Of a DNA stretch of 33,661 nucleotides, positions 1-10,290 are shown one piece after another; within the stretch, counting starts at the first letter, position 1, and the number at the start of each line of letters is the position of its first letter. Source of the stretch: Gammaproteobacteria bacterium (GTDB lineage Bacteria > Pseudomonadota > Gammaproteobacteria > Thiohalospirales > Thiohalospiraceae); the NCBI GenBank assembly GCA_015491735.1, contig WFVH01000056.1:1-33661 (forward strand), written 5' to 3'. The translations under genes and the position numbers were made by a program. The notes under the pieces were generated by a model that saw only the letters and a list, made by a program, of their open reading frames with translations, made no database searches and was not told the DNA's origin.

Positions 1-189
1 GGTGACCTTGCTTTCCGGACCGAGATGTTTGAGTAGCGCCCGGCGAATATCCCCATCGGTAATGGTGCCCAGCAACCTCTGCTCCGGGTCGACAACCAGC
101 GCTATACGCAAAGCCTCCTGGTCGAGCACCTGAATGGCTTTTGTCATATTGTCGTCTGGCGTGAGAAGCGCTTGTTTCCATTGGTACAT
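1..189 (-). CDS. CBS-domain sugar-phosphate nucleotidyltransferase, N-terminal fragment (PtmE-like)
   Basis: This is the first 63 codons of a gene that runs off the left edge. The ATG (complement of 187-189) lies 3 bp after the stop of the NeuD-like gene, so it is the next gene of the same operon. The visible residues form one CBS domain: an ALVVD strand followed by a GTITDGDIRRALL signature. CBS domains precede the nucleotidyltransferase domain in PtmE-type enzymes, which make GDP-glucosamine for the GDP-linked legionaminic acid route; the neighbours fit that role. The catalytic domain is outside the window, so the enzyme assignment is inferred from the CBS fragment and from context. Confidence 0.7.
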   Translation of the reverse strand, partial: MYQWKQALLTPDDNMTKAIQVLDQEALRIALVVDPEQRLLGTITDGDIRRALLKHLGPESKVT

Positions 190-192
190 CGG

Positions 193-849
193 CTACTCTC
201 CAATGTTTACTGTTCGCTCCGGGCGTGATTGTATGTACTTTACGCCCCGGGGGATATCCTTATACAGGGTGGAGCCTGCGGCAACGATACTGCCTGAGCC
301 TACTTTTATGTTTTGGATCACGGAACTTCCAGTTCCCAGGTGGACGTTCTCGCCAATGATAACACCACCGCTGAGAACGACCCCCGGTGCCAGATGGCAA
401 TTGGCGGCAATTTTGCAATCGTGGTCGATGCAAACACCGGTGTTGACAATCGTATCCACCCCCACGGTAACGCCGGGTTGAATAACAGCCCCGGCCATTA
501 CCTGAGTACCTTCGGCAAGCCCTGCATCATTCGCAATGACTGCTGAAGGGTGTATGACAGAGGCAAACCGGTAGCCCAGTTGCCTCATTCGCTGCCCGAC
601 TTCCCGGCGCCGGTGTTTTCCGGGTATGGCGCCTAATCCGTTGACAAGCTCGACTTTACCGGGGGGGTGATTGGAGATGAAATATTCCTCTGTCAATAAC
701 GGCGCGCCACAAAAGTGTGTGCCGGATGGTTTGTACGGGTCGGTCACTCCGGCAATCTTCCGGCCTGACAGGCGTAGCGCTTCGGCTACCACCTTGGCGT
801 GCCCGCCCGCCCCAAGAAGTATCAGCGGCTTGGTATTCAGATCGCGCAA
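193..849 (-). CDS. NeuD/PglD-family sugar O- or N-acyltransferase (LegH-like)
   Basis: The 218-residue protein starts with a short Rossmann-like part carrying GAGGHAKV at residues 13-20, the hallmark of NeuD/PglD enzymes. It then has hexapeptide-repeat sequence (residues about 95-205; for example GVTVGVDTIVNTGVCIDHD), predicted to form a left-handed beta helix that works as a trimer. Members acetylate amino-sugars or sialic acids with acetyl-CoA. Its start lies 13 bp inside the end of neuB, so the two are translationally coupled. In a LegB/LegG/LegI neighbourhood the likely job is N-acetylation of the 4-amino sugar (LegH/PglD role). A NeuD-type O-acetylation of the finished nonulosonate is the alternative, and sequence alone does not settle it. 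Confidence 0.85.
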   Translation of the reverse strand: MRDLNTKPLILLGAGGHAKVVAEALRLSGRKIAGVTDPYKPSGTHFCGAPLLTEEYFISNHPPGKVELVNGLGAIPGKHRRREVGQRMRQLGYRFASVIHPSAVIANDAGLAEGTQVMAGAVIQPGVTVGVDTIVNTGVCIDHDCKIAANCHLAPGVVLSGGVIIGENVHLGTGSSVIQNIKVGSGSIVAAGSTLYKDIPRGVKYIQSRPERTVNIGE

Positions 850-1916
850 CGGATGACCTCATCCACTTTATAGGAACGGTCACTTTGGGTTCCCAACAGA
901 TCCCAGTACAACATGGGCGTTATCCCGGCGCCTGCGCGTTTTACCGTCAAGTTCTGTTCACAGAAAAACTCCCCCTTGGCGATAGGCCGTGCAGCAACCA
1001 GGCTTTTACGCACGATGGCGCGGTTTTGTATTTCAGAAAACGAGGGGATTTTCAATCCATTACCCTTTGCTTTTTCCACAATACGTATCCCCTCTATCAT
1101 GGAGCGCAGCTCTCCCGGGTCGAGGGATGCCCGGTGATCCGGGCCAGGCAGGTTTTTGTCCAGCGTAAAATGCTTTTCAATCACAGTGGCCCCCATAACT
1201 GCAGCAGCAACGGGAACGGTGATACCCTGGCTGTGATCGGAATAACCTGTCTTCAAACCAAATGCCTGGCGCAGGGTGGCAATGGCGTTGAGGTTAATCT
1301 CCGGGTACGGGGCAGGGTATTCGCTGGTGCAGTGCAGTAGCGTGACCCTTCTTTTCAGCGCCGCCTGACCCTTGCCGGAACAGTAGGCGGTTTGAAATGC
1401 CGCTCTCGAAGGTTTGCCGCCGCCGATGAGTCCGAAAGCAATGACACCGAGCGCCTCCTCGATCTCCGCCAGGGTTGCCATGCCGGTTGAGACGATCAGC
1501 TCGTGACCTGTCCGGGCATGAGCCAGCAACAAGGGGGCATTGGTAATCTCTCCGGAGGGGATTTTGAGTGTTTGCAGGCCGATGTCATTGACCAGGAAAT
1601 CGAGACTTTCCAGGTCGAAAGCGGTGGAAAGCAGTTGAATGCCTTTTTTCCGGCAGTAGTCAGCAAGCCGATGGTGAACCTCCCACGACAGCTCCAGCCG
1701 TTTCAGCATGTCGAACTGGGGTTCACCGGCTTTTGTGGTCTGTTTTTGATAGTTGGCTTTCCCTACACTCCGGGTAACCAGGTTTTTGGCTTTGAATGTC
1801 TGAAACTTTACGGCATCGGCTCCCGCTGCCACGGCAGCGTCCACCAGCCCGAAAGCCCTGTCCGGGTCTCCGTTGTGGTTTACTCCGGCTTCGGCAATCA
1901 GGAAGATAGGGTTCAC
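837..1916 (-). CDS. neuB: N-acetylneuraminate/legionaminate synthase (NeuB/LegI family)
   Basis: The family condenses phosphoenolpyruvate with a six-carbon N-acyl amino sugar to make a nine-carbon nonulosonic acid. The 359-residue product has the NeuB TIM-barrel opening (IAEAGVNHNGD at residues 7-17, then DAVKFQTF), the KIPSGEI segment, the STGMA segment and HCTSEYPAP. A C-terminal SAF/antifreeze-like domain occupies about residues 300-359 (RKSLVAARPIAKGE). Start is GTG at 1914-1916, overlapping the neuC stop by 4 bp (GTGA). Whether the product is sialic, legionaminic or a related acid depends on the precursor; the adjacent LegB-type dehydratase favours legionaminate. Family membership is secure and the exact substrate is not. 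Confidence 0.93.
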   Translation of the reverse strand: MNPIFLIAEAGVNHNGDPDRAFGLVDAAVAAGADAVKFQTFKAKNLVTRSVGKANYQKQTTKAGEPQFDMLKRLELSWEVHHRLADYCRKKGIQLLSTAFDLESLDFLVNDIGLQTLKIPSGEITNAPLLLAHARTGHELIVSTGMATLAEIEEALGVIAFGLIGGGKPSRAAFQTAYCSGKGQAALKRRVTLLHCTSEYPAPYPEINLNAIATLRQAFGLKTGYSDHSQGITVPVAAAVMGATVIEKHFTLDKNLPGPDHRASLDPGELRSMIEGIRIVEKAKGNGLKIPSFSEIQNRAIVRKSLVAARPIAKGEFFCEQNLTVKRAGAGITPMLYWDLLGTQSDRSYKVDEVIRCAI

Positions 1917-3088
1917 GTTTCTGTTTCCATGTCGAAAAACCGTTTTTTCAGGATATCATCCAGCGGGTGTTTGCGGATGATTTTTGCAATTTTTCTGGAT
2001 GCGCCGCCATCACCGTAGGGGTTGGTGGTCTGCTGCAGCTTTTCCTGGAAGCGGGAAGTGTATATCTCCTGGATTGCTGCGCGAATGCTGTTGCTGTCGG
2101 GGCTGCAGTCGATGACGCTCTCCGCCTTGATCCGGCCCCGTTGCCGATCTCCGATGTTGACCGTGCCGATTTTGAAGCTTGGCGCCTCGAGCAGGCCGCT
2201 GGATGAGTTGCCTACCACTGCATCCACGAATTGCATGGTGGAAAGATAGCGGAGCTGTCCCAGCGATGTGTAGGCAATGGCGTGGTCGCGGTGGCTCGAG
2301 ACGTAGTCATCGATCATGCTGTTGATAATCCGGCCATTGGTATCCGCATTGGCTTTGGTAAACAGCAAGTGGGTCTCTTCCAGTTCGCTCAGAACCTGTA
2401 GCAGGTTGCCGAACTGCTCTTCCGCCGTCTCCTGCTCCAATGTGACCGGGTGATAGGTGACCAGTAAATTACGCTTGCCGAGCTTGAAATCAATGGCTTT
2501 CTCCAACTCGTTGCGCTTGAGCAGGTTTAGACGCCGGATACTGTCGATCCCCAGGGCGCCTACCTCAAATACGCGCTCCGGCTGCTCTCCGAGCTGAATG
2601 ACCCGGTTGCGATAGGCCCTGGTGGCGGTAAAGTGGAGATGCGACATTTTGGTGATCGAATGCCGAATCAGCTCATCGAATGCCCCCTCCGTTGCTTCAC
2701 CTCCATGCAGATGTGCGACAGGAACCCTGGCGACCATCGCGGCGCTGACGGCGGAGAATATTTCAAAGCGGTCGCCCAGTACCACCAGCAGGTCAGGTTG
2801 CAAATCCGCAAGTGCATCGGCAAACCCAATGACACCTAAACCGATTGACTTGCCAATTCCCGTTGGACTGTCGGAAGAGAGCAGCATTTCGATTTTGTGA
2901 TCGATGGTAAAACCATCCTGCTCGATTTGCAGATAGGTAAGCCCGAACTCCGGTGAGAGATGCATACCGGTAGCAATGATTTGCAGCTTCAAATCATCAG
3001 CCGCCTCAATCTCTTTCATCAGCCAGTAAAGCAGCCCGTATTCTGCGCGGGTGCCGGTGACAACACAGATTTTGCGCCTGTTTTTCAT
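1913..3088 (-). CDS. neuC: Hydrolysing UDP/GDP-N-acyl-amino-sugar 2-epimerase (NeuC/LegG family)
   Basis: The 391-residue protein carries the NeuC opening (VVTGTRAEYGLL at residues 9-20), the LVVLGDRFE motif, HLHGGE, and the late SSSGLLEAPSF segment that holds the nucleotide. The family removes the nucleotide and inverts C2, giving the free ManNAc-type sugar used by NeuB. It is directly upstream of neuB with a 4-bp overlap. With a LegB homologue next to it, the substrate is probably a di-N-acetylated 6-deoxy sugar (LegG activity) rather than UDP-GlcNAc. The start is the ATG at 3086-3088; no strong Shine-Dalgarno is visible before it. Confidence 0.9.
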   Translation of the reverse strand: MKNRRKICVVTGTRAEYGLLYWLMKEIEAADDLKLQIIATGMHLSPEFGLTYLQIEQDGFTIDHKIEMLLSSDSPTGIGKSIGLGVIGFADALADLQPDLLVVLGDRFEIFSAVSAAMVARVPVAHLHGGEATEGAFDELIRHSITKMSHLHFTATRAYRNRVIQLGEQPERVFEVGALGIDSIRRLNLLKRNELEKAIDFKLGKRNLLVTYHPVTLEQETAEEQFGNLLQVLSELEETHLLFTKANADTNGRIINSMIDDYVSSHRDHAIAYTSLGQLRYLSTMQFVDAVVGNSSSGLLEAPSFKIGTVNIGDRQRGRIKAESVIDCSPDSNSIRAAIQEIYTSRFQEKLQQTTNPYGDGGASRKIAKIIRKHPLDDILKKRFFDMETET

Positions 3089-3202
3089 ACGTTATCAGAC
3101 TACAGCAGTGGAGTGGAGACCCATCGATTTAGCTACCGGATCAATTAGTAAAGGGGTCCACGTACTGCAAACGGTTTTTGCGCCGAACGGGGTGCAACAT
3201 CA

Positions 3203-4186
3203 TCAAACATTGTAGATTTCCGCTTTATAGGCTTTGAGATTTTCCGGCCGGGTAATCCAGTCGATGGTTTTTTGCAGTCCTTCCCGAATGCCGACTTCCG
3301 GTTTGAAACCGGTGAGGCGCTCTATTTTTGTGTTGTCACACCAAAGGCGGAACACTTCGGATTTTTCTGGACGGAAACGCTGTTCATCGGTTACGAACTC
3401 TACGCAGCTTCCCATCAGCTCCTTGATCAGGTTCAGGGTGTCGGCAATGCTGATTTCAAAGTTGGAGCCGATATTGACTGTTTCTCCTATCGCCTCGTCA
3501 CATTGCGCCAATGCCAGGAATCCCCGGCAGGTATCGGTTACATAGTTGAAATCACGGGTGGGGGAGACATCTCCAAGTTTAATCTGTTTTTTGCCATTGG
3601 CGATCTGGGTGATGATGGTGGGGATAACCGCACGCGCCGACTGCCTTGGGCCATAGGTGTTGAATGGCCGCGCCACCGTCACGGGCAGATCGAAAGCACT
3701 ATGAAAACTCATCGCCATGGCGTCAGCGGCTATTTTTGTTGCGCTATAGGGCGACTGGGGTTGTAGCGGGTGCTTTTCATCGATGGGTACATACTGCGCG
3801 GTGCCATACACTTCGCTCGTGGAGGTGTGTATCACCCGTTTTACGCCATTTTCCAGCGCCGCCTGACATATGTTGAGGGTCCCTTTTATATTGGTATCCA
3901 CATAGCTGTCGGGCGCAACATAGGAGTAGGGAATAGCAATCAGTGCAGCCAGATGAAAGATGCTATCCACATCGCGCGTAATGTGTTTGCAATAGTGCGG
4001 ATCGCGCACATCGCCAGTCAATATCTCGATATGATCCTTGCAGGCCACATCCTCCAGCCAGCCCCAGTGATTGAAAGAGTTGTATTGTGACAGTGCCTTG
4101 ACACGCCAGCCCTGCTGGACCAGCATCTCCGTCAGGTGAGAGCCGATGAAGCCGTCCGCGCCGGTTACCAATACCTGTTTCGCCAT
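3203..4186 (-). CDS. legB: LegB-like NAD-dependent sugar-nucleotide 4,6-dehydratase (SDR family)
   Basis: This 327-residue extended short-chain dehydrogenase has the Rossmann motif GADGFIG at residues 9-15, the active-site STSEVYGT stretch and YSATK (catalytic Tyr and Lys). The early YNSFNHWGWLE segment is characteristic of LegB proteins of the legionaminic acid pathway. They make the 4-keto-6-deoxy intermediate from a nucleotide-linked GlcNAc. The gene starts 27 bp after manC and is followed by a 114-bp gap before neuC. In many nonulosonate loci a LegC aminotransferase sits beside legB; none is present there. The broader class (NAD-dependent epimerase/dehydratase) is certain and the LegB assignment is likely. 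Confidence 0.85.
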   Translation of the reverse strand: MAKQVLVTGADGFIGSHLTEMLVQQGWRVKALSQYNSFNHWGWLEDVACKDHIEILTGDVRDPHYCKHITRDVDSIFHLAALIAIPYSYVAPDSYVDTNIKGTLNICQAALENGVKRVIHTSTSEVYGTAQYVPIDEKHPLQPQSPYSATKIAADAMAMSFHSAFDLPVTVARPFNTYGPRQSARAVIPTIITQIANGKKQIKLGDVSPTRDFNYVTDTCRGFLALAQCDEAIGETVNIGSNFEISIADTLNLIKELMGSCVEFVTDEQRFRPEKSEVFRLWCDNTKIERLTGFKPEVGIREGLQKTIDWITRPENLKAYKAEIYNV

Positions 4187-4213
4187 GTTGCTGTTATCCG
4201 CTGATAGAAAACG

Positions 4214-5683
4214 CTATCTTCCGTATTGATCTTCAAACCGCACGATATCGTCTTCCCCCAGGTAACTGCCGGATTGCACTTCAATCATTTCGAGGGGGAT
4301 GGAGCCGGGATTTTCCAGCCGGTGAACGGTTCCCAGGGGAATGTAGGTCGACTGGTTCTCGGTTATCAGCAGCTCATCTTCACCACAAGTCACCTTGGCG
4401 GTTCCTTTGACGACAATCCAGTGCTCCGCACGGTGGTGATGCATTTGCAGGGAGAGCGCAGCTCCCGGGTTTACGGTAATCCGCTTGACCTGATAGCGTT
4501 CACCAAAATCGATTCCCTCGTATGCTCCCCACGGCCGGTGAACCCGGCGGTGAACCAGATGCTCTTCCCGGCCGGCGCTGTGTATCCGGTTGACGATGGA
4601 TTTGACATCCTGGGCGGCATCCTTGTGCGCTACCAGCACCGCATCGGCCGTTTCCACTACAATCAGATTGTCGATGCCCACGGTTGCCAGCAAGCGGTCA
4701 TTGGCATAAAGCAGGCTGTTGCTGGTTTTTTCCACCAGAACATCACCTTTGATGACGTTGTTTTGTTCATCGCGTGGTTGGGTTTCCCACAGGGATGGCC
4801 AGGCGCCGACATCGGACCAGCCAGCAGCAAGGGGGACAACTGCGGACTGGTATATCGAGTCCGTTTCGCCCTGATTGAGTTTCTCCATTACGGCGTAGTC
4901 GATCGATTCATCGGGACACTGCTCGAAAAGCGCTCTGTCAACACGGTAAAAATCCGTATCACTACGGCCTTTTTCGTAACTTTCCCGGCAGTTGTCCATG
5001 ATATCGGCGCGGTAGTGAGCCAGGGCGTCGAGCCAGACAGAGGCTTTCATCATGAACATGCCACTGTTCCACAGGTATTCGCCCGAGGAGACGTATCTTT
5101 CTGCCGTGGCCCGATCCGGTTTTTCGACAAATTGGCTTATGGTGCGCGGCGGCGCGCCCGGTTTGCCGAACCGGGGGGTGGTTTCCACCGGTTCTCCCGT
5201 GCGGATATAGCCGTATCCGGTTTCCGGCTTGTCGGGCGTGATGCCGAAGGTCACAAGGAAGCCGTTCGCGGCCAGAACGGCGGCTTGTTCGACCGCGGCA
5301 TGAAACTTTCCGGCATCAAGAATGATGTGGTCGGCGGGCATGACGAGCATGATTGCGTCCTGCTGCCGTTCAACCACGGCCAGTGCGGCCAGCGCCAATG
5401 CAGGCGCGGTATTCTTGCCAACCGGCTCAAGGAGTATGCCGGGTGTTTCCGCGCCTGTTTCGCGCAACTGTTCAGCAACCAGAAAGCGGTGCTCTTCGTT
5501 GCAGATGACCATGGGAGAAGCGGAACGGAGCTTTAGCCCGGCCAGGCGGTTCACGGTCGCCTGCAACAGCGTCTGTTCTCCAAGCAGCGGTAACAGTTGC
5601 TTGGGAAAAAGTTTCCGCGACAGCGGCCATAAACGGGTACCGGATCCGCCAGAGAGAATGACCGGGGTGATCTGCAACTTCAT
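4214..5683 (-). CDS. manC: Bifunctional mannose-1-phosphate guanylyltransferase / mannose-6-phosphate isomerase
   Basis: The 489-residue length is typical of the two-domain type II enzymes (ManC/CpsB/AlgA/WbpW). The N-terminal nucleotidyltransferase has GGSGTRLWPLSRKLFPKQ at residues 12-29 (GTP binding) and a FVEKPD motif. The C-terminal cupin, roughly residues 375-480, has HRPWGAYEGI, QMHHHRAEHWIVV and the PLGTVHRLENPG metal-binding stretch of phosphomannose isomerase. It provides GDP-mannose for surface polysaccharide. The ATG at 5681-5683 follows a GGAG Shine-Dalgarno and lies 2 bp after the wzz stop, so the genes are co-transcribed. Confidence 0.95.
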   Translation of the reverse strand: MKLQITPVILSGGSGTRLWPLSRKLFPKQLLPLLGEQTLLQATVNRLAGLKLRSASPMVICNEEHRFLVAEQLRETGAETPGILLEPVGKNTAPALALAALAVVERQQDAIMLVMPADHIILDAGKFHAAVEQAAVLAANGFLVTFGITPDKPETGYGYIRTGEPVETTPRFGKPGAPPRTISQFVEKPDRATAERYVSSGEYLWNSGMFMMKASVWLDALAHYRADIMDNCRESYEKGRSDTDFYRVDRALFEQCPDESIDYAVMEKLNQGETDSIYQSAVVPLAAGWSDVGAWPSLWETQPRDEQNNVIKGDVLVEKTSNSLLYANDRLLATVGIDNLIVVETADAVLVAHKDAAQDVKSIVNRIHSAGREEHLVHRRVHRPWGAYEGIDFGERYQVKRITVNPGAALSLQMHHHRAEHWIVVKGTAKVTCGEDELLITENQSTYIPLGTVHRLENPGSIPLEMIEVQSGSYLGEDDIVRFEDQYGR

Positions 5684-5685
5684 CG

Positions 5686-6747
5686 CTAACTCCGTTTCTC
5701 CTCAACAAGAAACTCCTCTCGTGCCTTGCTGACGAGCGATGCGCCGAAAGCGGCAAATACGCCCACAAAAAAGCCAACGACAGCAAATATCAAAACAGTG
5801 ACGGTTTTGCCTGTGCCAACGGGTCGCGCCGATCGCATGGGGGCTATCAACATGCGGGTTTCGCGCATATTGTTGACCGTGGCCTCGGTTTTGGCAATCT
5901 CTGCCGCCTGCTCGTGCTGTTCGCGCAGGTTATCCGAGATTGCACTGCTCAACGTATCTTTTTCCCGCGGAAGTTCGATATACAGGCGCTCCTCCAGGGC
6001 GGCGAGGCGCTCGCTGTTTTGCTGAATCTCATTGTCAATCATCAGCAGCGTCATTGCCCGGGTTTCGTCACCTGTCTGGGTTCGCGCCGCTTTCCGGTAT
6101 TCGATGGCCTCGTTGACCAGGGCCTTCAAGGCTGAAACGTGTTCGCCCAGAAGTTCTGAAGTTCGATCGAGACGTTTCAGGTCGGCAGTAAGCACCTTAT
6201 GCTGCTCTTGCAGCGCACTCAGCTTGTTTCTGCTTTTGTCCAGCTCGACACTCCTCTCCTTTTTTATAATCTCGAACACCCCCTGGTGGTTTTGCTTGAC
6301 ATAATCGACCACCTGTTTGTGCAGTTGGACAAGCGTGTTCCCCTGGGACTCGGGGGCTTTGCTCTCCAGGACGATGACCTCACTGTCCCGGGGGATTCGC
6401 GCCGTAATCTTGTAGTTGTCCGGCTTCTCTTCCGTGAGCTGCTCAAGGGCGTGAGGTATGTAGGCTTCATTGATTTTTGCCAGCAGGGTTCCCGGACGAT
6501 CGATTAAAAGCGTTTTGCCATCTTCCAGAATTGTTCCAATCTCGATGGTGGTCGTGTACCGGTACTGTTTGGGTATCAACAGCGCATAGGCCATGCCAAA
6601 CAGGGTAAAAAACAGGAAGATAGTAATGATTATCCGTTTGCGCGCAATCAATATCTGTATCAGCTCTACCAGGCTGAGTTCGTTTTCGCGCGAACCGGCA
6701 GCCTGTGTATCCCCGCCTTCGTTGGGTGTTTTCAATATCTTCTTCAT
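5686..6747 (-). CDS. Wzz-type polysaccharide chain-length determinant protein
   Basis: The 353-residue protein has the polysaccharide co-polymerase layout. There is an N-terminal transmembrane helix (about residues 38-57, ending in the conserved LIPKQYRYTTTIEIG), a long periplasmic region with heptad-like helices (about 170-290), and a second transmembrane helix (about 315-339) before a short basic tail. Such proteins set the length of Wzy-polymerised chains in the inner membrane. It is the first gene of the visible polysaccharide operon. The 226-bp gap upstream (6748-6973) presumably holds the operon promoter, but I cannot point to convincing -35/-10 boxes. No tyrosine-kinase domain is fused to it. 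Confidence 0.88.
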   Translation of the reverse strand: MKKILKTPNEGGDTQAAGSRENELSLVELIQILIARKRIIITIFLFFTLFGMAYALLIPKQYRYTTTIEIGTILEDGKTLLIDRPGTLLAKINEAYIPHALEQLTEEKPDNYKITARIPRDSEVIVLESKAPESQGNTLVQLHKQVVDYVKQNHQGVFEIIKKERSVELDKSRNKLSALQEQHKVLTADLKRLDRTSELLGEHVSALKALVNEAIEYRKAARTQTGDETRAMTLLMIDNEIQQNSERLAALEERLYIELPREKDTLSSAISDNLREQHEQAAEIAKTEATVNNMRETRMLIAPMRSARPVGTGKTVTVLIFAVVGFFVGVFAAFGASLVSKAREEFLVEEKRS

Positions 6748-6973: not shown

Positions 6974-8629
6974 TTACTTTACCCCTTTTCCGCTCAGAAA
7001 GGGAACGTACTTTTTGTCGGTACCCTGAATATGGCTGGCCAACCAGTTTTTGAGAAACTGCAGCAGCTCCTCGAGTACGCTGTCGTCATTGGCAGTGACA
7101 CGGCCCTGGAATTCCATGATTCGGGCAACGAGCTTTTTGTGCTTGGCTTGATGCGGCGCCAGCTCCGGGTAGCCATGCATTGCCAGCAGGCCCTCTTCGT
7201 AGGTGAAGTGGGTTTTCGTATACTCCACCAGGCCATTCAGTATGCGCCCCAGCATCTCGTGGCCGCTGTTTTTGCCGGATTCGTAATAGAGTTCGTTTAC
7301 GATATCGACCAGCAGTTTGTGTTGGCGATCGATTTCGGCAATACCCACCATAAGTGATTCATCCCAGCGGAACAGGAGATTGCTTTCCTGGGCGGATTTC
7401 TTCTCCTGCAACGCCTTCTGGTTAATCCGGAAACGTTCCAGCAGCATGCGTACCTCCGCCGCCATGGCGGCCACCCGGGCGCTTTCGGAACCAGCGTGCT
7501 GGGCATCGTGATTGATCTCGTCGACGGCCTGGGAGATGCGGTTGATATTGCCGTTGATATCTTCTGCCACGACACTCTGTTGCTCGACCGCTGTGGCTAT
7601 CAGCTCATTCATTTCGGTTATGGCGTTGATGGCGCTGGCTATCTCATCCAGCACGGAGCAGGTTCCGTTGGCCTGGGCAACGCTCTGCTTGGCGCGATCT
7701 CCACTGGAGAGCATGACCTGGGCTGTTTGCCGGGTATCTCGTTGCAGATCCTCGATCATGTTCTGGATCTCCAGCGTGGACTCCTGTGTGCGCCTGGCAA
7801 GGGAGCGCACCTCGTCAGCCACAACGGCGAACCCGCGTCCCTGTTCCCCGGCCCGTGCGGCTTCGATTGCGGCATTCAGGGCCAGCAGGTTGGTCTGTTC
7901 CGCGATGTCACGGATGATGTCCAGAATGCCATTGATATTGTTGCTGTGGCTCTCCAGCCGCTCAATCGCATCGACCGCCTGTTGCACATCGCTGGCCAGT
8001 GCGTTGATGGAGTTGACCGCCTCTTCCACAACTTTTTGCCCATTGAGAATGGAGTCATCAGCCTGCTTGGCAGCGCTGGCCGCGTGGGATGAGTTGCGGG
8101 CCACCTCTTGCACGGTGGCGGTCATCTCGGTCATCGCCGCGGCGGCCTGCTCAATACTCTCAGCCTGGACGGAGACGTTTTCTCCCGATTTTTCGTTGAG
8201 ATGCGCCAGTTTGCCAGAGGTCTCGGCCAGAACGCCGACGGTGGTGAGCACAGAGCTGATGGCTTGCCCGACACCATCGGAGATATGGTTGATGGAAGAG
8301 GCAATTTCTCTCATTTCATCGTGGCTTTTGAGCGTCAGGCGCGCGCTCATGTCACCCTCCGCCATTTGGTGGCAGCTCTCCTGTAGCTGATTGATGTTCA
8401 GGCGGATGGCGGTGTAGATGGCAAGAAAGAGATAGGACAACAGCAGCAGCGTACCAACCAGCAGGGCAGCATTCAGATATCCGGTTGTTTTGTCTATGCC
8501 ACTTGCATTGAAGAGTTCATAGCCAAAAACCAGTAAGGGTATCGTGCTGACGGTAAACAGCAGGAAAAACTTGGTGCGAAAGCGAAGCTGGTTCATTAAA
8601 TGAACAGCGGGTGTCAGTAAAAAAGCCAT
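6974..8629 (-). CDS. Methyl-accepting chemotaxis protein with C-terminal hemerythrin domain
   Basis: The 551-residue receptor has two membrane helices (about 20-40 and 51-73) joined by a loop of only about ten residues, so it lacks a periplasmic sensor domain. A HAMP-like linker follows (about 74-125). The signalling hairpin tip is intact ([20 protein letters not shown], then [15 protein letters not shown]). From residue 418 there is a bacteriohemerythrin domain with all seven di-iron ligands in their usual spacings: H437, H474, E478, H493, H497, H533 and D538. The protein therefore probably senses O2 (or NO/redox) in the cytoplasm and signals to CheA, as DcrH-type receptors do. The start has GGGGAG about 11 nt upstream. 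It stands alone, with no other chemotaxis gene nearby. Confidence 0.93.
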
Positions 8630-9019: not shown

Positions 9020-10000
9020 TCAAACTTCCACCACGGTTTCCACCAGGGCCGGGGGGGCGTGCAAATAGGTGGTTGTGTTGCGTTTGGCTTCGATGTCGGC
9101 GTATATCAGTTCGGCCTGTTGTATGCTGATGTCCAGCGTTTTACCCAGTTTAGCTGCAGGAATGCCGTTGTTTTTTGCCCATAGGGCCAGATCCATTTTT
9201 TCGTAGGGGAGGGCGTAATAGAACTCATCCTGCCCCTGGGGCAGGCTGTAGGTGTCTGTTGTTGGTATTGCCGTACAGATCGCTTCTGGAAGGCCCATGT
9301 GTCTGGCAAGTGCATAGACCTGGCTTTTGTACAGATGCGCGATCGGCTTTATGTCCGCTGAACCGTCGCCGTTTTTTACAAAAAACCCCTGGTCATATTC
9401 AACCCGGTTGGGGGTGCCGATAACGCTGAAGTTAAGGCGATCGGCATGGAAATACTCGATTGTCTTGCGAATCCGCTGTTTGAAATTGGTAGCTGCTACA
9501 ATTTGCAGGTACGCTTTGTAGGGCAGCCGTTTTTCGAGGAGTTCTCCTTCCGGGGTCTGCACGATCAGCCGAAAGTAGTGGAACCCCCCTTTTGCTCCCC
9601 CCGATATGACAATCTTGTTTCTCCAGTTCTTTTGGTAAGCGGGGAAAACGGTGCGAATGGCTTCATCCCGCCATCGATAGCAGCCGATGGCATCCAGGGT
9701 TGGCGAAAGATCGGTGACGATGTAATCCAGTTTCAGATGTTCCGCTATCAGCTCCCCCAGACTTGAACTGGTTCGAGAAGAGTCCTGTTCCGGAAGCAGC
9801 AGCGCCTGTACCTTGTCAGCGCCAAATGCTTCTACGCAGAGTGCGGCGCAGACGGAGCTGTCAATTCCTCCCGAAAGGGCAATGATGGCGCCACGGCGGC
9901 GGTGTTTTCTGTTATATGCCCTCAGGGCAGTGCTGATCTTTTCTATTTCCCGATCGTAGTCAAGTTTGAAAACCTGCCGATCCAATGATAGCGATGACAT
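9020..10000 (-). CDS. NAD(+)-synthase-like ATP-dependent amidating enzyme (divergent NadE family)
   Basis: From the chosen start the protein is 326 residues. It has the N-type ATP pyrophosphatase P-loop SGGIDSS (residues 43-49), GTPNRVE (195-201) and GDGSADIKPI (211-220), all features of ammonia-dependent NadE. It lacks a glutaminase domain. It differs from housekeeping NadE by an insertion of about 45 residues (roughly 120-165) and by the segment PTTDTYSLPQGQDEFYYALP (246-265) after the GDG motif. The start is the ATG at 9998-10000, preceded by AAGGTGG; a longer TTG-initiated reading (10045) lacks support. It lies 41 bp after an acyl carrier protein gene. Family knowledge predicts adenylation and amidation of a carboxylate; the substrate is unknown and may be carrier-bound. 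It could still serve as an ordinary NAD synthase. Confidence 0.8.
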   Translation of the reverse strand: MSSLSLDRQVFKLDYDREIEKISTALRAYNRKHRRRGAIIALSGGIDSSVCAALCVEAFGADKVQALLLPEQDSSRTSSSLGELIAEHLKLDYIVTDLSPTLDAIGCYRWRDEAIRTVFPAYQKNWRNKIVISGGAKGGFHYFRLIVQTPEGELLEKRLPYKAYLQIVAATNFKQRIRKTIEYFHADRLNFSVIGTPNRVEYDQGFFVKNGDGSADIKPIAHLYKSQVYALARHMGLPEAICTAIPTTDTYSLPQGQDEFYYALPYEKMDLALWAKNNGIPAAKLGKTLDISIQQAELIYADIEAKRNTTTYLHAPPALVETVVEV

Positions 10001-10041
10001 TCGTCCACCTTCCCGGTTAATAGCTGCGCATCTGCTCCGTT

Positions 10042-10290
10042 TCAAGCCGATTTCTGTTCTACGTAGTGAGTGATTCTGTTCAGTGTGTCGAGGTTCTCCG
10101 GTGTTATTTCATCATCTTCCACCTGGATTTTGAACTCCTCCTCGAGAAAAGTGACCAGTTCGATGACCCCCGTCGAATCCAGCAGGCCCAGCTCCAGAAA
10201 GGAGGTGTCGTTTCCCAGCTCGATATCATTTTGACCCATCAAAAAGTTGTCCCGAATATAATTCTCGATGATTGTTCTGGCCTTTGCCAT
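10042..10290 (-). CDS. Stand-alone acyl carrier protein
   Basis: This 82-residue acidic protein has the four-helix carrier fold signature. GLLDSTGVIELV (residues 35-46) contains the phosphopantetheine-attachment serine S39, here in a DST context instead of the DSL of fatty-acid AcpP. The start is the ATG at 10288-10290, because AGGGAG lies about 10 nt upstream. The in-frame GTG 9 bp earlier is only 1 nt from that site and is unlikely. The gene precedes the NAD-synthase-like gene in the same direction, suggesting that the two act together on a carrier-tethered intermediate. It is not beside fabF or fabD, so it is probably a specialised carrier. Activation would need a phosphopantetheinyl transferase such as the AcpS encoded at 12935-13318. 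Confidence 0.88.
   Translation of the reverse strand: MAKARTIIENYIRDNFLMGQNDIELGNDTSFLELGLLDSTGVIELVTFLEEEFKIQVEDDEITPENLDTLNRITHYVEQKSA

Follow-up and report, generated by a model that had tools for sequence, protein, structure and literature searches.

A NadE-like enzyme paired with a stand-alone acyl carrier protein in a conserved gene cassette: a possible route to amidation of carrier-tethered acyl groups

The window, that is the whole stretch of 33,661 nucleotides analysed here, carries on its minus strand a gene for a NadE-like enzyme preceded by a gene for a stand-alone carrier protein, both of which a first-pass annotation had placed correctly. The NadE-like ORF ends with a stop at 9020, and its most likely start is ATG 10000, which is preceded by the sequence ggaaggtggacga; its product has 326 aa and its reading frame stays open further upstream to TTG 10045. 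The carrier gene, located 41 nt upstream on the same strand, extends from ATG 10290 to a stop at 10042 and encodes 82 aa. Both frames are undamaged; across the genus they share 72-80% identity, and their active sites do not vary. The features of the locus are as follows.

9020 to 10000, minus strand: NadE-like N-type ATP pyrophosphatase, PRK00876/NF002048 (NF002048 467.7 bits; NadE structures of the PDB with Z up to 27.4)
10042 to 10290, minus strand: stand-alone acyl carrier protein, 82 aa (PF00550; conserved partner in 63 of 64 loci)
10171 to 10179, minus strand: DST phosphopantetheine attachment site of the carrier (from the sequence; DSTG in homologous carriers)
9857 to 9874, minus strand: SGGIDS ATP pyrophosphatase loop (S, GG and DS identical in homologues and canonical NadE)
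9518 to 9682, minus strand: family-specific insertion of about 49 net residues with GCYxxRD and WK motifs (alignment and model)
9218 to 9265, minus strand: altered P2 loop PTTDTYSLPQGQDEFY (alignment; residue roles from PMC6946656)
10380 to 10531, unstranded: imperfect palindromic element upstream of the pair (36-nt arms and an inner 18-nt hairpin)

The palindromic element lies between rarA and the carrier gene, has a terminal perfect inverted repeat of 13 nt (GTAACTATTCAGC) and looks like a small repeat element. A scan for promoters and terminators gave nothing beyond chance level, PADLOC gave no defence match and no relative was found in viral contigs.

The NadE-like protein is a full member of the NCBIfam subfamily NF002048/PRK00876, with a score of 467.7 bits over residues 20-338 for a cut-off of 313, and its match to PF02540 consists of two stretches divided by an insertion. 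It scores above the cut-off of TIGR00552 (138.3 bits, cut-off 63.65) and under those of NF010587 (160.6 bits, cut-off 255) and NF001979 (90.8 bits, cut-off 250). The subfamily is functionally uncharacterised and carries the sole label 'NAD(+) synthase', which is inherited from NadE; the evidence of this analysis argues against that label. The carrier matches PF00550 (31.6 bits, cut-off 20.8) and remains under the cut-offs of the ornithine-lipid ACP model NF052616 (59.9 bits, cut-off 130), of DltC (31.5 bits, cut-off 68) and of fatty-acid AcpP (about 30 bits, cut-offs 66-106). Its DST attachment site had been regarded as unusual in the first-pass annotation; with DSTG in 87 of 90 homologous carriers it is the norm of the family, and it was discarded as a distinguishing feature.

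A scan of GTDB species genomes revealed more than 550 relatives, of which the 80 best were retrieved together with as much as 10 kb of flanking DNA. Cassette counts refer to the 64 loci, drawn from these best 80 of more than 550 relatives, whose upstream flank measures 4.5 kb or more. Of these 64 loci, 63 carry a homologous carrier gene, 62 an AMP-forming ligase gene and 53 a gene for an AsnB-type amidotransferase; in 52, all three lie no further than 5 kb from the NadE-like gene. Of 397 Pseudomonadota genomes sampled evenly, 18 (about 5%) carry the NadE-like gene, and 16 further loci from this sample contain carrier and ligase genes in every case and AsnB in 14. In 90/92 cases the NadE-like gene shares its strand with its nearest partner, the median distance being 26 nt. 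In a control restricted to 1.5 kb, any partner was found at 0/35 canonical NadE loci and at least one at 28/28 PRK00876 loci. The carrier pairing is conserved in other genomes and occurs far beyond chance (63/64 loci compared to 0/35 canonical NadE loci). Several Alphaproteobacteria show the gene order NadE-AsnB-ligase-carrier in place of AsnB-carrier-ligase-NadE; as the association survives this shuffling, it argues for a shared function beyond shared descent alone. Cassette partners were not found at one diverged locus with full flanks (L117), nor within the short flanks covered at two other diverged loci (L099 and L105). Relatives outside Pseudomonadota, as judged by record titles and with many metagenome bins among them, include Myxococcota, Chloroflexi, Krumholzibacteriia and Latescibacterota, and Methanosarcina acetivorans also has a match.

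The A4 motif of the ligase varies between FDYG, FGYG and FYYSYG types, which may reflect several acyl substrates; the types being mixed, no conclusion was drawn on amino-acid specificity. In several genomes, divergent GNAT-like proteins with weak Acetyltransf matches are encoded directly after the NadE-like gene (L017:10266-11369, L022:4270-5325, L108:10994-12043) and are candidate acceptor transferases. Some cassettes contain a glyoxalase/methylmalonyl-CoA-epimerase-like protein (L067:4073-4483, L082:3394-3822, L021:2725-3156), and its presence might point to an acyl group that is branched or dicarboxylic.

By profile, a PrmC/HemK-family protein is encoded in or beside the cassette at 30 of about 99 loci (about 30%), and NPPY is present in 19 of these 30. 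Against the TIGR03534 cut-off of 199.1, the cassette paralogues score 191-207 bits in the gamma group and 165-178 bits in the alpha group, and in the Alphaproteobacteria checked they are additional to a full-scoring housekeeping PrmC. Some are embedded in the cassette, for instance L078:9046-9939, L083:9016-9978, L047:8942-9871 and L104:3506-4423. As PrmC methylates the side-chain amide nitrogen of glutamine, a PrmC paralogue in the cassette would fit a pathway that makes carboxamides. The replacement of NPPY by APPY or LPPY in some of the paralogues suggests a changed substrate.

To compare active sites, 51 PRK00876 homologues were aligned with 36 canonical NadE proteins, three alpha sequences being left out. 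The ATP-binding and amidation motifs are kept, as initially annotated: the S, GG and DS of SGGxDS are the same in all 51 homologues and all 36 canonical NadE, and the ammonia-site D214 is retained together with F208, K227, N174, R178, R180 and K308. F208 occupies the place of the residue stacking on the nicotinic ring, and the KNGDGSAD motif around D214 shows little or no variation, as is the case in NadE. Because F208 is retained, as are the N and R residues of the helix that comes next, some NaAD-like binding is conceivable. In the human residue numbering used here, His648 is taken to stand just before the C-terminal KR. This numbering fits every residue named in PMC6946656, where Ala573 and Leu575 of the P2 loop of human NadE are in contact with the nicotinic ring and AMP, and where the adenine is contacted by His648 in the human enzyme and by Phe634 in that of M. 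tuberculosis. The altered segment reported in the first-pass annotation, PTTDTYSLPQGQDEF, is present in the NadE-like protein and provides a conserved Thr pair in this loop (T250 in 50/51 homologues, T252 in 51/51), whereas canonical NadE has Ala in 33/36 and Leu in 36/36. At the adenine-contact position, the placing of which rests on this numbering, Tyr or His is found in 36/36 canonical proteins and Ala, Ser, Asn, Thr, Arg or Val in 51/51 PRK00876 proteins. This pattern supports a changed acyl substrate, with adenylation and ammonia attack presumably kept.

The insertion, initially estimated at about 45 residues, comes to about 49 residues by comparison with E. coli NadE and holds the conserved motifs GCYxxRD and WK. 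It is modelled with confidence as a three-strand beta element at residues ~129-160, in a model with a mean pLDDT of 88.7 over the whole protein. The model superimposes on PDB 2e18 with Z 27.4 and an rmsd of 3.3 over 251 residues, and on NadE structures overall with Z 20-27. Judging from the model and the alignment, the insertion and the altered P2 loop may change the shape of the pocket on its acyl side.

A canonical NadE is encoded elsewhere in the genome of the window, by a 563-aa frame on another contig (C84) scoring 250 bits, so the NadE-like protein is not the only NadE of the organism. Glutamine-dependent NadE was found in 17/17 further PRK00876-positive genomes, and canonical NadE in most same-genus and same-class genomes with a PRK00876 gene, none being found in one incomplete draft genome (G002). 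In a tree of the 51 PRK00876 and 36 canonical proteins, the former group together in a single clade on a long branch (support 0.94, branch 1.76), separate from canonical NadE. Combined, these data support the view that the NadE-like gene is not the housekeeping NadE. The two groups share the fold, the SGGxDS loop, the ammonia-site Asp, the helix N/R residues and a KR near the C-terminus. The NadE-like proteins differ by the beta insertion, the change of P2 Ala/Leu to Thr/Thr, the loss of the adenine-contact His/Tyr, their clade, and the carrier and ligase genes that nearly always adjoin theirs.

Genes very probably related to the cassette have been studied in Sinorhizobium, where an asnB-ACP-ligase-nadE operon stands on pSymB (1450586-1455388) alone beside minCDE, with no sugar genes. 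In S. meliloti, the pSymB acyl-CoA ligase homologue SMb20650 is co-transcribed with the ACP SMb20651, acylates holo-SMb20651 and, when expressed in E. coli, gives acylated ACP; it cannot take the place of FadD (PMC7232532). The likeness to the cassette lies in a ligase gene co-transcribed with its own ACP and in acylated ACP in vivo upon expression of the ligase; the neighbouring asnB and nadE-like genes are left undiscussed in that work (PMC7232532). Two other ACP-like matches occur on pSymB, one at 633 kb among HAD/MBOAT genes and the other at 677 kb next to mobile-element and sugar genes, and neither adjoins a cassette ligase. Since no ACP-ligase pair other than that of the cassette was found on pSymB, SMb20650 and SMb20651 are very probably, by elimination, its ligase and carrier. 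If so, the loading step has experimental support and efficient synthesis of long-chain acyl-CoA by this ligase is unlikely.

From the gene association, the retained catalytic core, the altered nucleotide-substrate contacts and the separate canonical NadE, we consider it on balance probable that the pair belongs to a conserved carrier-protein module for the ATP-dependent amidation of a carrier-tethered acyl group, and not to NAD synthesis. In this mechanism, the AMP-forming ligase would load a carboxylic acid onto the dedicated carrier and the NadE-like enzyme, using ATP, would adenylate a carboxylate of the acyl group, which we infer to be carrier-bound. Ammonia, either free or supplied by the AsnB-like glutaminase/amidotransferase acting in a presumed order with the NadE-like enzyme, would then attack the adenylate and generate a carboxamide, which in a subset of genomes could be N-methylated by the PrmC paralogue. 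Nearby GNAT or hexapeptide acyltransferases are candidates for passing the putative acyl group to a presumed acceptor, often an exopolysaccharide sugar. A point against this reading is that the cassette would contain two enzymes for amidation, AsnB and the NadE-like one, between which the work might be divided in more than one way. The first-pass annotation had proposed amidation or aminoacylation of a carrier-bound acyl group: a conserved functional pair is borne out and amidation is the best reading, whereas the proposed decoration of the polysaccharide encoded at 1-6747 is not upheld. The fuller statement, that a repurposed NAD-synthetase paralogue with a beta insertion and a new substrate pocket amidates a phosphopantetheine-tethered acyl group at the core of a widespread and so far undescribed carrier-amide pathway, is put forward tentatively.

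The closest alternatives concern the substrate or the nucleophile. The NadE-like enzyme might amidate a free small molecule or a sugar nucleotide, such as a uronic acid, with ligase and carrier contributing an acyl group of their own to that product. Many of the cassettes lie in exopolysaccharide loci that also encode Wzz, tyrosine kinase and XrtA-type deacetylase, and uronamides are known in exopolysaccharide-type polymers (WbpS of P. aeruginosa, as cited in PMC3684757); however, the rhizobial cassette stands without sugar genes and the carrier is the most constant companion of the NadE-like gene, so we regard this alternative as having a minor though real chance of being right. It is rather unlikely that the enzyme is an amide ligase in which an amine (an amino sugar, an amino acid or another amine) replaces ammonia in the attack on the adenylated carboxylate, leading to conjugation. 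Other N-type ATP pyrophosphatases, namely argininosuccinate synthase and TilS, do use amine nucleophiles and the acyl side of the pocket appears reshaped, but the ammonia site, including D214 and KNGDGSAD, is preserved as in NadE and an amide methyltransferase of PrmC type fits a primary amide better.

In the genome of the window the cassette is split. AsnB lies on a different contig (C27) and is 80% identical to a same-genus copy that adjoins carrier and NadE-like genes; the ligase lies on a third contig (C22) and is 51-57% identical to cassette ligases. For the GNAT partner of same-genus genomes there is no clear orthologue in the genome of the window (25 bits, 27% identity). These facts could indicate that the pair is a left-over of a cassette broken up in this organism, whose scattered genes no longer form one working pathway; yet the frames of the pair are intact and conserved in the genus with invariant active sites, and those of AsnB and the ligase are likewise intact, which makes such decay improbable. 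That the NadE-like protein is a second working NAD synthetase beside carrier genes, for instance for local NAD supply or regulation, would suit the NadE fold overall, the ATP site and the TIGR00552 score (138 bits, cut-off 63.65), but is very improbable in view of the missed NF010587 and NF001979 cut-offs, the altered nicotinic-ring and adenine contacts and the occurrence of canonical NadE in those complete genomes that were checked.

Within the genus, AsnB-carrier-NadE(-GNAT) is found in three genomes, and carrier-NadE lies by rarA in another and by ribosomal-protein genes in others; the neighbours of the pair are rarA/glyA/thiL, nar or ribosomal-protein genes. The sugar cluster at 1-6747 is absent near the pair at the same-genus loci within the DNA read, so its nearness in this window says little. 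A tie between the pair and this cluster was rejected on genus-level synteny, and the rhizobial cassette alone beside minCDE also speaks against it. In many other Gammaproteobacteria, the cassette lies in XrtA-type exopolysaccharide loci.

The XrtA/PEP-CTERM accessory set (TIGR03108, TIGR03098) has homologous AsnB and AMP-ligase proteins and occupies similar exopolysaccharide loci in many Gammaproteobacteria. The cassette proteins differ from it, as the copies tested score far under both cut-offs (AsnB 414-476 bits against 817; ligase 374-434 bits against 592), and to our knowledge a NadE-like enzyme is not among the known families of that set. Carrier-dependent amidation occurs in natural products, where OxyD-type AsnB makes malonamyl starter units. 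OxyD-type systems share the ligase/carrier/amidotransferase logic of the cassette, with an AsnB-type protein as the amidating enzyme; we know of no NadE homologue in that role in natural-product carrier systems.

A literature search found, among searchable papers, no description of the carrier/NadE-like pair, of the function of the NadE-like protein or of the four-gene cassette. The first-pass statement that no such system is described holds to this extent; on the other hand, the subfamily is listed in NCBIfam and the rhizobial ACP-ligase pair, very probably of the same cassette, has been studied (PMC7232532). The protein subfamily, the single pieces and the ligase-carrier-amidotransferase logic are already known, and the system is new beyond that logic only if the NadE-like step acts on the carrier. 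Hundreds of genes labelled nadE or NAD(+) synthase are probably mis-annotated, which distorts reconstructions of NAD pathways and lists of drug targets. If the mechanism is true, it would provide a carrier-based route to carboxamides, perhaps N-methyl amides, that unites the NadE, AsnB and PrmC families, and a testable function for the S. meliloti operon and for accessory genes of many exopolysaccharide loci.

Two other regions of the window, both on the minus strand, were recorded. At 193-6747 there are sugar genes of sialic-acid type, which encode a NeuD-like acyltransferase, NeuB, a NeuC epimerase, and GDP-mannose 4,6-dehydratase-like and mannose-1-phosphate guanylyltransferase-like proteins, together with a gene for a Wzz-like protein; the sugar product is perhaps legionaminic acid. 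At 6974-8629 lies a gene for a methyl-accepting chemotaxis protein that carries a C-terminal hemerythrin domain and probably senses oxygen or redox state.
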